Positions 39,014 to 45,990 of a stretch of 64,000 nt of DNA are shown here, one piece after another (the first letter of the stretch is position 1; the number at the start of each line of letters is the position of its first letter). Made by a program: the position numbers and the translations under genes. The notes under the pieces are model-generated. The model did no database searches. It was not told the DNA's origin and saw nothing but the letters and a program-made list of their open reading frames with translations. The DNA is taken from NCBI RefSeq assembly GCF_900167015.1, contig NZ_FUXX01000002.1, positions 62,001 to 126,000 of the forward strand. Reading direction: 5' to 3'. Source of the DNA: Succinivibrio dextrinosolvens DSM 3072. GTDB taxonomy: Bacteria > Pseudomonadota > Gammaproteobacteria > Enterobacterales > Succinivibrionaceae.

Positions 39014-39771
39014 AGATCCAGATTGAAGATAATTCTCCGTTTAAAGATGCCGCTTTGGATGTAATGTCCTATATAGACAGGCATTCTCTTAAGTTTGAGA
39101 ATGAGCTTCTTTTAAAGGTCGGGCAGAAGATTGTACTTGAGCTCTCTGATGATTCGATTACTCCTCTGGATTTTGAGATTGATCTGTTCAGAGACAAGCT
39201 TCTGTGGAGACTAGCTCATAGCGGCAAAAACTCAGAGGCTGTGTGTCGAGCTGTAATCGGAAAAACAGTAAAGCCTTTAGTGTTTGATGCTACCGCAGGA
39301 CTTGGTCGTGAGAGTATCATTCTACAGTCAGCCGGCTGTCAGGTTTATATGTTTGAGCGTAATCCTGTTATCTGGCTGCTTCTTAAATCAGCCATGACTC
39401 ATGCTGAGAATAATACTGAGATTCTGTCCTCTCTGAAAAACGGACTGCCACATCTGACATCATTAGGCTCTGTTGCTGAACAGCTGAAGAATGGCGAGAA
39501 ACTGCCTGAGCCTGATGTTATTTACTATGATCCTATGTTTCCTCAGAGAACCAAGAGTGCTCTTGTGAAAAAGGATATGAGAGTATTTCACGAGATTGTT
39601 GGCTTTGATCAGGATACCACTGAGTATGCGAATTTCCTTCTGACAGTGGCTAAACACCATCTTGTGGTTAAGCGTCCTTCAAATGAGCCTCCACTGGAGC
39701 TCAATCTCAGAAGAAGCAGCTTTGTTGACGGCAAAGCCTGTCGTTTTGACTGCTACTTCTGTGGTAACTAG
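39007..39771 (+). CDS. rsmJ: 16S rRNA m2G1516 methyltransferase RsmJ
   Basis: A 254-residue SAM methyltransferase. The SAM-binding segment FDATAGLGRESIILQSAG and the YYDPMFPQRTKSALVKKDMR motif are specific to RsmJ (YhiQ). It modifies G1516 of 16S rRNA. It overlaps aroE at its start and converges with the ModA-like gene by four bases at its end. Confidence 0.94.
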   Translation: MLKIQIEDNSPFKDAALDVMSYIDRHSLKFENELLLKVGQKIVLELSDDSITPLDFEIDLFRDKLLWRLAHSGKNSEAVCRAVIGKTVKPLVFDATAGLGRESIILQSAGCQVYMFERNPVIWLLLKSAMTHAENNTEILSSLKNGLPHLTSLGSVAEQLKNGEKLPEPDVIYYDPMFPQRTKSALVKKDMRVFHEIVGFDQDTTEYANFLLTVAKHHLVVKRPSNEPPLELNLRRSSFVDGKACRFDCYFCGN

Positions 39772-40529
39772 TTGTTAAGAGCCTCGAAACCTGCGCTGTA
39801 GAACTCAGCCAGGTTCTTTTTATTTCCCCTGATATAGTTATACAGTTCCTGTGTCTTATCAGATTTATCTGTGCTGATTATGTAGTAGTAGATAGGTGAA
39901 TAGTACTCATGAGGAATATACCAGTATGAGCCGGTAGCTTCTCCATTCTTCATAATCAGAGGTTTGGTTATGAAACCAGTCTGGATATTGTTGTTCTTCA
40001 GTAAAGAGTAGATCTGGTATTCATGCTCTGCACGATAGATTGAATTCTTCTTTTTTAGATACTCTGAAGGGAAATCCTTTCTTTTTACTACTTCTGTTGC
40101 AGCGAATCCAACTGTAGTCAGGCTGTCCTTTGGAATTGCCAGTGACTTAAGTTTCTTTTTTACGATAACGTTGATGTTGTCCTTTAGAAGGAATCTGTTG
40201 TTGGACCAGAGGATCAGAGGTGCTTTTACAAGTCTTGCAACACTGTTCTGAGTAATCTTGCCTTCCTTGATTAGATTTGCAGGTAATCTTTCCTCGTTGG
40301 TGATAATTACGTTGCACTTACCGCGATAGTAAATGGCTCGTGACTCAATATCCTGCATTGTGCCGAAATAGCTGTTAAATGTAATCTCAGAGTATTCTCT
40401 GACGCCTTCAAGAGCAGAGTAAACCTGTGGCACACCACATACTTCAGGAATATCATCAGTAGCCTGTACTGAAGTGAATGAGGTAGAAAGAATTAGTAGT
40501 CCGATTAGTTTAATAATTCTGTTTTGCAT
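39768..40529 (-). CDS. Exported ModA-like solute-binding protein
   Basis: A 253-residue secreted protein with a signal peptide (about residues 1-23, ending SVQA). The mature part resembles the type 2 periplasmic binding fold of molybdate-binding ModA: CNVIITNEERLPANLI, LVKAPLILWSNNRF, SLAIPKDSLTTVGFAATEVV and a late YYIISTDKS. No modB/modC permease or ATPase lies nearby, so it is an orphan or has been adapted to another anion. The mature protein has two cysteines (PEVCGV and GKCNV) that could form a disulphide. Confidence 0.62.
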   Translation of the reverse strand: MQNRIIKLIGLLILSTSFTSVQATDDIPEVCGVPQVYSALEGVREYSEITFNSYFGTMQDIESRAIYYRGKCNVIITNEERLPANLIKEGKITQNSVARLVKAPLILWSNNRFLLKDNINVIVKKKLKSLAIPKDSLTTVGFAATEVVKRKDFPSEYLKKKNSIYRAEHEYQIYSLLKNNNIQTGFITKPLIMKNGEATGSYWYIPHEYYSPIYYYIISTDKSDKTQELYNYIRGNKKNLAEFYSAGFEALNN

Positions 40530-40580: not shown

Positions 40581-42452
40581 TTATTTAAATAGCTTTTTCT
40601 CGCAAAGGATCAGTCTCTTGGTAATCTCCTCACTTGATCCTGCTCGTCTTAACTTATCTGCAAATCCAGGTTCGCTCAGCATAAGAGATAGGTTTGCAAG
40701 AATACTGATATGGGAATTTCCATCATCAGGAACAGCAATCAGGAAGAACAGATCACAAGGCTTGTTATCCAGAGCTCCACAGTTGATTGGTTTTGATAGT
40801 GATGCTACAGCAATAGCTGAACGGTTAACAAAGCTTCCTCTTGCATGTGGAATTGCAATTCCGTGAGCAATACCTGCAGGATTCTGATCCATTTTCGCTT
40901 TAATCGCATTTAGGAAATCATGTTTTGAATTGATTGCTCTTACAAGTGACAGTCTGTCTGTTAGTACGTGAATAATTTCATCAACGGACTGCGCTTTAAG
41001 ATTATAGATAACACTATTCTCATCTAAAGCATATCTGATGGTGTTAATATTTGATTTTGCAGAATTATCTCTGTTATTTCCAAAATGATTGATAGCATTC
41101 AGGATGTTCTCAAAGAAACTTCCATGTAATTTATAGTAGTTCGCGTATATCACAATCATGCTTATGCTGCAGACACATACTATAAGAGTACATATGTTTA
41201 CTGAGTTGAAAAATAGATTCTCATCAAGTCCTTTTGAAGTGAACAGTGAAGCATAAGAAGATCCCTGTGCAGCAAATACCATTGCAAACAGAGAACCGAA
41301 TTTTGCTGACATTATCTGAATTGAGAAATTCATACACTCAGAACGACAACCGAATTTGAATTCTCCATAATCGATGCAGTCTGCTGTCATAACTGTGGTT
41401 GATGCCTGAGAAAGACAGAATCCAAGTGATAACAGACACATAAGGAAACTCAGTGACAGCATGTTTAGTCTTGATGTGCTGTGCATTGCATACAGTGTTA
41501 AAAATGACAGCAGAATCAACAAGGTAGAGAATATAAAAATCTGCTTGCGGGACGTGTACTTAATTATCAGATGAAAAAAAGTATAAGTTAGAAGGCTTAC
41601 TACCAGCCAAGGAATCTGGATAAAGAACAGAATATCGTTGTCAGATGGAACATCCTGAATGGTAATAGCAAAGTAGTTCTGGTATCCGACAAAAACACAC
41701 AGACACATCTGCTGCAGAAGAGTCAGGAAGAAAATAATCATCAGCTGATCATTACCGAAGAAGGTTGCTGTGGCATTTTTTGCTTTAACTACCTTTCTCT
41801 CTGGTTCTTCCATGGTAAAGAAGCTGGCAAAAATAATGGAACTCAGGAAAATTGTTGCAGCAATATACCATGAAGCTGTTCTAAAACTGTCGGCTTCCAT
41901 TGAAGAAAAAATATGTGTAGGGAGCCCCTGGTCCTCATAGAAAAAAGCGTAGGTCAGAACCAGTGTTAAACAGAATCCCAGTACAGCTGAACCTCGACCT
42001 AGTCCACATATAATTTCGCGTGTTCTATGATCTGAACCGAAAATAGATGTTAATGACCAAGAAGGGATATCAAGCATTGAGAATGAAAGAGACCATGCGA
42101 TGTACATGAAGATAGCATAAATAATCTGTACTGATGAATTCATGCTTGGAATGTCAAACATCTGAATCAGGATTGCAGCATTAATGATGCCTCCTGCCAG
42201 TATTGTCATTCTGAACTTGTTGTACTTAAAGATATCGGCGCATAAATCAATAAGCATACCGATAAATGGTTCTTTTATCAGCTCAATGAACTTAACAATC
42301 AGGAAGATTGGAACAATATATACAGGAGAAATATCCAGTACAGTTGTCAGATACAGATAGTAAAAGGACAGCACAAACATATAGACTGCATCACGGCCGA
42401 TGCCGACAACAGCATATGGAAGTGCCCATTTTAGAGAGACCTGATTGTTCAT
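40581..42452 (-). CDS. GPH-type sugar symporter fused to PTS EIIA (fructose/mannitol type)
   Basis: A 623-residue fusion. Residues 1 to about 450 form about 12 membrane segments of the GPH (MelB-like) family: DIPSWSL, and MTADCIDYGEFKFGCRSECMNFS, which matches the family's late signature. The cation-site DxxxD of MelB corresponds to ELIKE here, with both Asp replaced by Glu. After a ~35-residue linker, residues about 480-623 form a type-2 EIIA domain with GIAIPHAR containing the expected phospho-His (His536). The known precedent, LacS of lactic streptococci, carries a glucose-type EIIA, a different fold. The EIIA domain is presumably phosphorylated by HPr or an FPr-like donor and tunes transport. 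Substrate unknown. No other PTS genes are nearby. Confidence 0.82.
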   Translation of the reverse strand: MNNQVSLKWALPYAVVGIGRDAVYMFVLSFYYLYLTTVLDISPVYIVPIFLIVKFIELIKEPFIGMLIDLCADIFKYNKFRMTILAGGIINAAILIQMFDIPSMNSSVQIIYAIFMYIAWSLSFSMLDIPSWSLTSIFGSDHRTREIICGLGRGSAVLGFCLTLVLTYAFFYEDQGLPTHIFSSMEADSFRTASWYIAATIFLSSIIFASFFTMEEPERKVVKAKNATATFFGNDQLMIIFFLTLLQQMCLCVFVGYQNYFAITIQDVPSDNDILFFIQIPWLVVSLLTYTFFHLIIKYTSRKQIFIFSTLLILLSFLTLYAMHSTSRLNMLSLSFLMCLLSLGFCLSQASTTVMTADCIDYGEFKFGCRSECMNFSIQIMSAKFGSLFAMVFAAQGSSYASLFTSKGLDENLFFNSVNICTLIVCVCSISMIVIYANYYKLHGSFFENILNAINHFGNNRDNSAKSNINTIRYALDENSVIYNLKAQSVDEIIHVLTDRLSLVRAINSKHDFLNAIKAKMDQNPAGIAHGIAIPHARGSFVNRSAIAVASLSKPINCGALDNKPCDLFFLIAVPDDGNSHISILANLSLMLSEPGFADKLRRAGSSEEITKRLILCEKKLFK

Positions 42453-42479: not shown

Positions 42480-42521
42480 AAAAAAACATTGGCCTTCGAT
42501 CAAGCAGAATGAGGGAAGGCC
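42480..42521 (-). terminator. Terminator of glmS
   Basis: GGCCTTC (42491-42497) and GAAGGCC (42515-42521) form a 7-bp stem around a 17-base loop. On the minus strand it is followed by AATG and seven T. Confidence 0.65.
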
Positions 42522-42543: not shown

Positions 42544-44373
42544 TTATTCTACGGTTACTGATTTAGCCAGATTACGAGGCTGATCAACATCTGTACCGTT
42601 AATTACAGCACAGTGATATGACAGTAACTGCAGAGGAATTGTAAATAAAATTGGCTGCAGGATCTCAGGACAGTCAGGAAGTGACAGCATATTGGTCTGT
42701 CCATCTGACTTGATAACTGTATTGCCAGACTTAAAGATATAAAGCTGTGCTCCACGTGCTCTGACTTCTTCAACATTGGAGATTAACTTATCCATCAGTG
42801 AGTTATCTGGAGCAACAACGACAACAGGCATTTCCTTATCAATCAGGGCGATTGGTCCATGCTTCAATTCTCCGGCAGCGTAGCCTTCAGCATGGATATA
42901 ACTGATTTCCTTTAGCTTTAATGCACCTTCAAGAGCAATTGGGAACATAACTCCACGTCCCAGGAACAGACAGTGACGTTTGCCTGAGAACTGCTCTGAA
43001 AGAGTTGCAATCAGCTTGTCACATGAGAGGAATTCCTCTGCAAGTGAAGGCAGCTTGCGGATTGCTTCAATAATTTCGTGATTCTTCTCTGCACTGATAG
43101 AACCGTTCTGCTTGCCGATAATCAGGGCAAGGATCAGAAGTGACAGCAGCTGTGTTGTGAAAGCCTTGGTTGAAGCTACACCGATTTCTGCGCCTGCCTT
43201 TGTAAACAGAGTAAAGTCCGATTCGCGAACCAGAGATGAACCGTTAACATTGCAGATTGATAGAGTTTTGCTGTAGTTCTGTTCTTTTGCAAGTCTTAAT
43301 GATGCCAGAGTATCAGCGGTTTCACCTGACTGAGAGATTGTAATGAACAGACTGTTGTCTCTTACAACAGCTTTTCTGTAGCGGTACTCTGAGGCAATCT
43401 CAACATTTGTTGCAATTCCGGTTAACTCTTCAAGCCAGTATCTGCCTACAAGACCTGCATGATATGAGGTACCGCAGGCTACAATCTGAATACTGCTGAT
43501 GTTGCGGAAGGTATTCTCATCTGCGCCGACAACAGTTTCCAGAGAGATATCATCGCCGTTTAATCTGCCTAAAAGAGTGTTTCTTAAAGACTGAGGCTGC
43601 TCATAAATCTCTTTCTGCATGAAGTGACGGAACTTACCCTTTGAAATACTTTCTGCATCAAGATCTGATTCTACGATCTGCTTTTCAAGCTTATTGCCCT
43701 CAAGATCGTATACATTAACCTCTTCGGTGGTCAGAACTGCAAGCTCATTTTCCTCAAGATAAATGAATCTGCGGGTTACAGGCAGCAGTGCCAGGGTATC
43801 TGAAGCGATGAAGTTTTCACCGATACCAAGACCGATAATAAGAGGTGAGCCTGAGCGGGCTGCGTACAGAGTATCAGGATCGTTCTTGTCGATTAGTGCA
43901 AGGCCGAATGAACCCTTAACTTCCTTTAAAGCCTTCTTGAAAGCTTCAAAAACTGAAGAGCTGTTCTTTAAATGACTGTGAATCAGACATACCAGAACCT
44001 CAGTGTCAGTCTGTGACTTGAACTGATAGCCCTGCTTTAGTAAATCTTCCTTAAGTGAGGCAAAATTCTCAATAATACCGTTGTGAACCAGTGCCAGGTT
44101 CTCACAGATGTGAGGATGGGCATTTGTCTCTGATGGGATACCGTGGGTTGCCCATCTGGTGTGTGCGATACCGATAAATCCCGGACAGCCTTTTTCCTTT
44201 ACAGCTTCCTTAAGATTCTTAACCTTTCCGGTGGTCTTGATGCAATGCTGCTCTCCATCACTGATGGTACAGATTCCTGCACTGTCATATCCACGATATT
44301 CAAGTCTTGACAGTCCTTCCAGAAGAATCTGAGATACGTTACGCTGAGCAATAGCACCGACAATTCCGCACAT
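42544..44373 (-). CDS. glmS: Glutamine-fructose-6-phosphate aminotransferase
   Basis: A 609-residue enzyme (E. coli 609) making glucosamine-6-phosphate. The N-terminal nucleophile Cys follows Met1 (MCGIVGAIAQ), with HTRWATHG and HNGIIENF in the glutaminase half. Two SIS domains form the isomerase half, with the SQSGETADT and VASTKAFTTQ motifs and the C-terminal AKSVTVE. It starts the path to UDP-GlcNAc that GlmU, next upstream, completes. No glmS-ribozyme-like structure was recognised upstream. Confidence 0.97.
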   Translation of the reverse strand: MCGIVGAIAQRNVSQILLEGLSRLEYRGYDSAGICTISDGEQHCIKTTGKVKNLKEAVKEKGCPGFIGIAHTRWATHGIPSETNAHPHICENLALVHNGIIENFASLKEDLLKQGYQFKSQTDTEVLVCLIHSHLKNSSSVFEAFKKALKEVKGSFGLALIDKNDPDTLYAARSGSPLIIGLGIGENFIASDTLALLPVTRRFIYLEENELAVLTTEEVNVYDLEGNKLEKQIVESDLDAESISKGKFRHFMQKEIYEQPQSLRNTLLGRLNGDDISLETVVGADENTFRNISSIQIVACGTSYHAGLVGRYWLEELTGIATNVEIASEYRYRKAVVRDNSLFITISQSGETADTLASLRLAKEQNYSKTLSICNVNGSSLVRESDFTLFTKAGAEIGVASTKAFTTQLLSLLILALIIGKQNGSISAEKNHEIIEAIRKLPSLAEEFLSCDKLIATLSEQFSGKRHCLFLGRGVMFPIALEGALKLKEISYIHAEGYAAGELKHGPIALIDKEMPVVVVAPDNSLMDKLISNVEEVRARGAQLYIFKSGNTVIKSDGQTNMLSLPDCPEILQPILFTIPLQLLSYHCAVINGTDVDQPRNLAKSVTVE

Positions 44374-44607: not shown

Positions 44608-45990
44608 TTACTTGTGTGGTCTTGGGTAATTATCGATAACAGTTGCCTGAGCTCGGGTGATAATCAGAGCGCCTTCGTTAGCCTTTATTCTGCGGGTTAC
44701 GGTTGTACCTGCTCCGATGGTAACGCCGTTCTTTACTGTAACAGGTGCAACCAGCTGAGTATCAGATCCAACGAAAACATCATCACCGATTACAGTCTTG
44801 AACTTGTTTGCTCCATCATAATTACAGGTGATGGTACCGGCACCGATGTTAACGTCCTTACCAATCTCTGCATCACCCAGGTATGACAGATGTCCTGCCT
44901 TGGTTCCAACTCCAAGATGCGCTTTCTTACACTCAACGAAGTTTCCAACGTGTACATTATCCTCAAGTACATTACCAGGACGCAGTCTTGCAAAAGGTCC
45001 GATGGTAGCAGCCTTTTTAATCTCTGAATCCTCAAGAACAGAATATGGAGAGATTACTGAGTTGTCTCCGATTGTACAGTTCTTGATTACACAGCCGGCG
45101 CAGATCTTAACGTTGTTTCCAAGAACAACCTTACCCTCAAAAATACAGTTGATGTCGATGAATACATCTTCACCGCAGGTAAGTTCACCGCGTACATCAA
45201 TACGCTGTGGATCAGCCAGGGTTACACCTGCAACCATCAGCTTATCTGCCTGATTTTTCTGGTAAAGTCTCTCAACAAAAGCAAGCTGTGGCTTTGAGTT
45301 TACACCTGAGAGAATGTCAAAATCAGGGGCAATCAGAATGTTTACAGCCTTGCCCTCTGATGAAAGCTGGCCTGATAAATCTGTCAGGTAGTATTCACCC
45401 TGAGCATTGTTGTTCTTCAGCTTAGGCAGATATTCCTTCAGAACAGATGCCTTGCAGACGATCATGCCGGTATTTACCTCATCAATCTTTCTCTGCTCGT
45501 CAGTTGCATCCTTTTCCTCAACAATAGCCTTAAGCTTATTGTCTGAACCACGGATAATTCTGCCGTAGCCATATGGATTTGGCGCAATTGCACTTAATAC
45601 ACTAAGCTCATTTCCTGCAAGTGAGGCGATAAGATCCTTTAGCAGGTCAGCTGGTGTAAGTGGGGTATCACCGTACAGAACCAGAACGTCAGAATCATCT
45701 GCAACCTTAGGCATTGCACAGTTTACAGCATGACCTGTTCCCAGCTGCTCTTCCTGTACAGAGATGGTTACAAGTTTTCTTAACTCTTCTGGCAGGTCGT
45801 TCAGCATCTGCTCGACTTTCTCTGCCATATGTCCGATAACTACATGAATTGCCTTAGGATTTAACTCTGCAGAGGTTCTGATTACATGTTCAAGCATAGG
45901 TCTGTTGGCTACCCTGTGTAACACCTTAGGTAGCGCTGAGTGCATTCTCTTACCTTTGCCAGCAGCAAGAATTACGATTTCTAATGACAT
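44608..45990 (-). CDS. glmU: Bifunctional UDP-GlcNAc pyrophosphorylase/GlcN-1-P acetyltransferase
   Basis: A 460-residue two-domain enzyme (E. coli 456). The N-terminal uridyltransferase domain has LAAGKGKRMHSALPKVLH; the C-terminal left-handed beta-helix of hexapeptide repeats (from about residue 250) holds the acetyltransferase site, with NFVECKKAHLG and HLSYLGDAEIG. It makes UDP-GlcNAc for peptidoglycan and LPS. It follows lgt by two bases. Confidence 0.97.
   Translation of the reverse strand: MSLEIVILAAGKGKRMHSALPKVLHRVANRPMLEHVIRTSAELNPKAIHVVIGHMAEKVEQMLNDLPEELRKLVTISVQEEQLGTGHAVNCAMPKVADDSDVLVLYGDTPLTPADLLKDLIASLAGNELSVLSAIAPNPYGYGRIIRGSDNKLKAIVEEKDATDEQRKIDEVNTGMIVCKASVLKEYLPKLKNNNAQGEYYLTDLSGQLSSEGKAVNILIAPDFDILSGVNSKPQLAFVERLYQKNQADKLMVAGVTLADPQRIDVRGELTCGEDVFIDINCIFEGKVVLGNNVKICAGCVIKNCTIGDNSVISPYSVLEDSEIKKAATIGPFARLRPGNVLEDNVHVGNFVECKKAHLGVGTKAGHLSYLGDAEIGKDVNIGAGTITCNYDGANKFKTVIGDDVFVGSDTQLVAPVTVKNGVTIGAGTTVTRRIKANEGALIITRAQATVIDNYPRPHK

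Follow-up and report, generated by a model that had tools for sequence, protein, structure and literature searches.

A MelB-like carrier joined to a fructose-type EIIA domain in the Succinivibrionaceae, with a galactoside-symporter-like branch and a branch whose carrier half is the less constrained

The window analysed here, a stretch of 64,000 nucleotides from Succinivibrio dextrinosolvens DSM 3072, encodes on its minus strand a protein of 623 residues (40581..42452, stop codon included) in which a MelB-like GPH carrier is followed by a PTS EIIA domain of type 2, as evidenced by the open reading frame, profile matches and fold. The plus strand across the same interval is riddled with stops. 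The carrier half (residues 13–438; 41139..42416, minus strand) matches the Pfam family MFS_2 (PF13347) at 113.9 bits against a cut-off of 27, and the EIIA half (residues 476–613; 40614..41027, minus strand), which contains the phospho-His536 and a second histidine, His581, matches PTS_EIIA_2 (PF00359) at 106.4 bits, also against a cut-off of 27. Both folds are recovered in the predicted structure: an AlphaFold2 model based on a 26-row alignment (mean pLDDT 81.7) shows a carrier built entirely of helices, a low-confidence linker (455–468) and an EIIA domain, and Foldseek aligned the two halves with MelB (7l16, TMt 0.87) and with EIIANtr of N. meningitidis (2a0j, TMt 0.90), respectively. These results bear out the first-pass annotation, which had read the gene as a fusion of a GPH carrier and a type-2 EIIA with an intact GIAIPHAR phosphorylation motif; its histidine, residue 536, is invariant across the fusion family. 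On the NCBIfam GPH model (TIGR00792) the protein reaches 173.9 against a curated cut-off of 231.35, and by these scores the carrier is a divergent member of the Pfam GPH family that lies under the narrower NCBIfam model. The EIIA half scores 90 bits on the fructose-subfamily model TIGR00848, just below its cut-off of 103.5, and 51 bits on the NCBIfam PtsN model, in keeping with the fructose/mannitol type initially assigned to it. Counterparts in a yak-rumen Succinivibrio MAG and in S. dextrinosolvens are 94% and 81% identical, and dN/dS values against near relatives (0.09–0.11 for the carrier half, 0.04–0.06 for the EIIA half) indicate that the fusion is a maintained gene.

It had been stated that no sugar enzymes flank the fusion, which proved wrong: glmS, encoding glucosamine-6-phosphate synthase (42544..44373), and glmU (44608..45990) lie directly upstream, both on the minus strand. 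Directly downstream on this strand is a gene for a ModA-like periplasmic binding protein of 253 residues (39768..40529), assigned to SBP_bac_11 by profile and fold. The glmU-glmS pair and the ModA-like gene flank the fusion in nearly all genera examined, the exception for glmS being Anaerobiospirillum, and the order in most genera is lgt-glmU-glmS-fusion-binding protein, with rsmJ, aroE, tsaC and purE beyond. Since the whole neighbourhood from lgt to def is syntenic within the Succinivibrionaceae, the adjacency of the fusion and glmS is weak evidence of a functional link. In the window and its closest relatives, a hairpin resembling an intrinsic terminator (GGCCTTC..GAAGGCC plus a T run; 42480..42521, minus strand) lies between glmS and the fusion, and a single operon with glmS was consequently rejected as a general arrangement; in three other loci (L050, L073, L080) the gap between the two genes is 16–30 nt. 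An Rfam match to PAGEV (24.2 bits against a gathering score of 61.1) was taken as chance.

The domain-architecture search proposed in the first-pass annotation recovered the combination of GPH and PTS_EIIA_2 in about 35 species of the Succinivibrionaceae, a rumen and gut family, including the isolates S. dextrinosolvens ACV-10, S. faecicola, Succinatimonas hippei YIT 12066 and A. succiniciproducens DSM 6400. Beyond the family, the fusion was not found in samples of the class (369 genomes), order (247) and phylum (398), where proteins were GPH-only or EIIA-only, and a pattern scan of 84,980 species likewise returned GPH-only or EIIA-only proteins outside the Succinivibrionaceae among the best 80 matches listed; these searches used two peptide patterns and scored a few candidates per genome. 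In the open literature we found no paper on a fusion of GPH with type-2 EIIA, although an entry in a 2019 survey of C-terminal MFS fusions is possible. The family comprises two classes, here called G, to which the window's gene belongs, and P. Counted from coordinates, 34 of 57 Succinivibrionaceae genomes carry a G-class and 10 of 57 a P-class fusion, and some (e.g. G013, G018, G020) carry both. In a quick tree of the carrier half, which came with a long-branch warning, G forms one clade (SH-aLRT 100) within a joint G and P clade (99), which further includes two Anaerobiospirillum carriers that are nested within P and have no EIIA; in the EIIA tree, G is again one clade (100/99), separate from FruA. 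As G and P share the junction residues YxxxYKLHG...VRYALDE and fall into a single supported carrier clade, the most parsimonious view is that a MelB-like GPH carrier and a fructose-type EIIA were joined once, at the origin of a family specific to the Succinivibrionaceae. The two EIIA-less carriers within P (L075, 579–2108; L076, 9983–11503), in which D19 is replaced by Ser, appear to have lost the EIIA domain. Conversely, EIIA-only remnants of P fusions occur at three loci (L137, 3213–3764; L136, 2944–3429; L138, 3417–3833); among these remnants, that of S. dextrinosolvens retains the end of TM12 together with EIIA, and that of genome G019 is a lone EIIA adjoining a GH32-like gene.

All ten P-class fusions keep the MelB residues K18, D19, D55, N58, D59, Y120, T121, D124, W128, R149, Q372, T373, V376 and K377 (for the roles of cation- and sugar-site residues in MelB see PMC8329300), and the class differs from MelB in its hydrophobic lining (I22, Y26, W342). 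It passes the NCBIfam MelB model (472.5, cut-off 456), and the member at L058 scores 416.9 on the NCBIfam GPH model, above the cut-off of 231.35. Several P loci adjoin genes for LacZ (1277 bits against 999), a GH36 alpha-galactosidase, GalE, GalT and GalK; neighbours of these kinds occur at L054, L057, L058, L059, L063, L064 and L077 and were absent near L065 and L069. The gene for the ModA-like binding protein is missing from all ten P loci examined. Judged by sequence and gene context, the P class is probably a galactoside symporter regulated by PTS phosphorylation, and as such an independent analogue of LacS with an unrelated EIIA fold. The earlier picture of PTS-coupled sugar uptake fits this sister class better than it fits the window's own gene.

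A comparison of the two halves revealed an inverted pattern of constraint in the G class: identity is higher in EIIA than in the carrier for 434 of 435 G pairs versus none of 43 P pairs, with medians of 46% (EIIA) and 25% (carrier) in G against 50% and 71% in P. Within Anaerobiospirillum alone, G has EIIA/carrier medians of 83/43 and P has medians of 60/76. His536 is kept in every G fusion, and His581 is replaced by Tyr in three G lineages, the same ones that are short of most cation-site acids. In the window, the ELIKE motif was rightly noted as standing in place of DxxxD; more specifically, E57, K60 and E61 correspond to D55, N58 and D59 of the MelB-type Na+ site, both acids being retained as Glu and N58 being gone, which makes K60 the actual novelty. 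Close relatives of the window fusion have D57. The window carrier also retains D128, W132, R153 and K366, and in MelB numbering its sugar site is mostly intact, with R for K18 and with D19, D124, W128, R149 and K377 kept. Across G the cation site drifts stepwise, from E/D-K-E in Succinivibrio to zero acids in Anaerobiospirillum, where R149 is lost, K377 is mostly lost and His536 is retained. The central loop between the two halves of the carrier is additionally expanded in the Anaerobiospirillum G proteins, by an inserted low-complexity segment that can reach about 300 residues (e.g. L072, 9965–12757; L079, 9965–12802). By these comparisons the carrier is the less constrained half of the window's protein, and the conservation pattern of G differs from what plain transport would give.

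We posit, with not quite even confidence, that after one fusion origin the G branch shifted from transport towards PTS-linked sensing or regulation and the P branch became a regulated galactoside symporter. The sensing or regulatory role of G is suggested by the better conservation of EIIA than of the carrier and by the invariance of His536 while site residues erode. In such a system the EI/HPr chain would phosphorylate His536 of the membrane-tethered EIIA, the eroding carrier and the co-encoded ModA-like protein would sense or slowly pass a periplasmic ligand, and the phosphorylation state of EIIA would control a cytoplasmic partner, for which the amino-sugar pathway encoded next door, with GlmS, is the most attractive candidate. 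Against a shift towards sensing stand the mostly kept sugar site of the window's protein, the presence of both cation-site acids as Glu, and a carrier dN/dS that is still low (0.09–0.11). The main rival is a plain sugar or amino-sugar cation symporter tuned, in the manner of LacS, by HPr~P acting on EIIA, with an altered cation site in which K60 may occupy the place of Na+, H+ serving as the coupling ion. In favour of this possibility are the retention of most sugar-site residues by the G proteins of Succinivibrio, the MelB fold of the modelled carrier, the sister class beside lacZ, GH36 and galETK, and the precedent of LacS (PMC10710835, PMC10703360); however, constraint is inverted in G, whole G lineages are without cation and sugar residues, and catabolic sugar genes are absent at the window locus, so that we consider it a serious but doubtful alternative.

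Each of the 34 Succinivibrionaceae genomes that hold a G fusion has the binding-protein gene beside it on the same strand. In eight species the start of this gene overlaps the fusion's stop, by 25 nt in seven of them and by 31 nt in the other, an arrangement suggestive of translational coupling; the window's two genes are 51 bases apart. The downstream protein scores 50.8 bits on SBP_bac_11 and 57 bits on the modA equivalog TIGR01256 (cut-off 62.5), and its predicted structure (pLDDT 89.4) aligns with ModA of P. aeruginosa (7t4z) at a Z score of 26.9 and 21% identity. Members of this ModA-like family share two invariant cysteines and a nearly invariant Glu170, which in the alignment to 7t4z occupies a ligand-adjacent position, presumably the equivalent of Val147 in the A. 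vinelandii protein. This glutamate renders molybdate unlikely, and the ligand is probably another compound. The constant company of the binding protein in G, with its frequent overlap, and its absence from the P loci could mean that it delivers its ligand to the fused carrier in the way known from ABC and TRAP systems, which would make the fusion the first MFS member fed by a binding protein. We know of no precedent for this in the MFS, and the binding-protein gene also occurs in 10 Succinivibrionaceae genomes without the fusion. It is therefore the older resident, co-occurrence was rejected as proof of partnership, and we regard delivery to the carrier as improbable.

The genome contains EI, one HPr, PtsP, PtsN-RapZ, FruA IIABC and a short EI-like protein with EIIAGlc; EI and HPr, among the genes that the first-pass annotation had recommended looking for, are thus present. 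The short EI-like protein is divergent and adjoins EIIAGlc (L153, 5442–7797). Given the type-2, fructose-type EIIA, its intact phospho-His and the EI and HPr of the genome, the PTS coupling first proposed is plausible. Matches to PF00358 in this genome are located elsewhere than in the fusion, and no EIIA of type 2 was found in it beyond the fusion, FruA and PtsN, from both of which the fusion EIIA clade is separate. The fructose type of the domain and the presence of FruA IIABC would also accommodate a role of EIIA in the fructose PTS, either as a sink or as a donor of phosphoryl groups (to the IIB domains of FruA, for instance), with the carrier as a mere membrane anchor; yet FruA has a IIA of its own, the fusion's EIIA forms a clade apart from it, and the setting is one of a binding protein and glm genes without fru genes, all of which renders this role very improbable. 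An assembly or annotation artefact, named at the outset as a possible refutation, can be dismissed almost entirely, as about 35 species including isolates share the architecture and both halves are under purifying selection.

For the PTS-linked sensing or regulation that we favour in the G branch, GlmS is considered as a partner by analogy with Salmonella, where phospho-EIIANtr binds and inhibits GlmS (PMC5024086). Basal Succinivibrionaceae genera have the order glmU-glmS-nfo-SBP-HPr, with the HPr gene just downstream of glmU-glmS-nfo-(ModA-like) at L131 (3640–3909), L132 (7025–7294), L133 (7911–8180) and L134 (5033–5302), and in derived genera the fusion sits between glmS and SBP. In Anaerobiospirillum, glmS has been relocated to nudH-ptsP-thyA-glmS-sdhE, beside enzyme I-Ntr (L174, L175, L176), and the fusion stays though glmS is elsewhere. 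A PTS gene is thus near glmS in every arrangement (HPr, the fusion or ptsP), which is suggestive only, because the pattern was noticed post hoc and the entire region is conserved in gene order. That the phosphorylation state of EIIA targets GlmS or the amino-sugar pathway is a guess and rather unlikely, and the fusion's EIIA being of fructose type rather than PtsN type counts against it. Less likely still is the full chain, a PTS-wired membrane sensor in which a decoupled GPH carrier would join with the binding protein in reporting an extracellular or periplasmic ligand to the attached EIIA, whose phosphorylation would then set amino-sugar synthesis through GlmS and so make the provision of cell-wall precursors depend on PEP and on what is available outside. 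Should the GlmS link be true, abundant bacteria of the rumen would have their supply of cell-wall precursors tied to PTS state.

According to a 2023 review (PMC10710835), direct phosphorylation regulates one bacterial transporter only, LacS, and the present family is a second candidate, independently evolved, with a non-homologous EIIA fold and, as its hosts are Gram-negative, testable in E. coli. The co-occurrence in the same genomes of a symporter-like branch and a branch with a better-conserved regulatory domain represents a natural experiment in the possible transition from transporter to receptor. LacS, the lactose-galactose carrier of Streptococcus and Lactobacillus, likewise has a PTS EIIA attached to a GPH carrier at the C-terminus, after TM12, and galactoside enzymes are encoded near several of the P-class relatives as well; however, the EIIA of LacS is of glucose type (PF00358), whereas the fusion has the unrelated type-2 fold (PF00359) and a separate origin in the Gammaproteobacteria, and the window copy lies with glmUS and a binding protein, has no galactoside enzymes at its locus and shows an eroding carrier. 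MelB shares the fold of the window's carrier half, and the P class exceeds the NCBIfam MelB cut-off, but MelB lacks an EIIA, and the window protein reaches only 170.9 on that model (cut-off 456), differs by N58K and D55E/D59E, and is 24% identical. The fusion shares the EIIA fold, the invariant phospho-His and, in most cases, the second His with EIIANtr (PtsN) and fructose-type EIIA, the difference being that its domain is membrane-tethered. The yeast proteins Snf3 and Rgt2 are also MFS carriers, and their long cytoplasmic tails are conserved for signalling (PMC12740885), whereas the fusion is bacterial, its tail is a phosphorelay domain and sensing is something we infer. The fusion thus belongs to a known kind, the LacS-type carrier-EIIA fusion, and what is new is its EIIA fold and its unusual second branch, the window's own.
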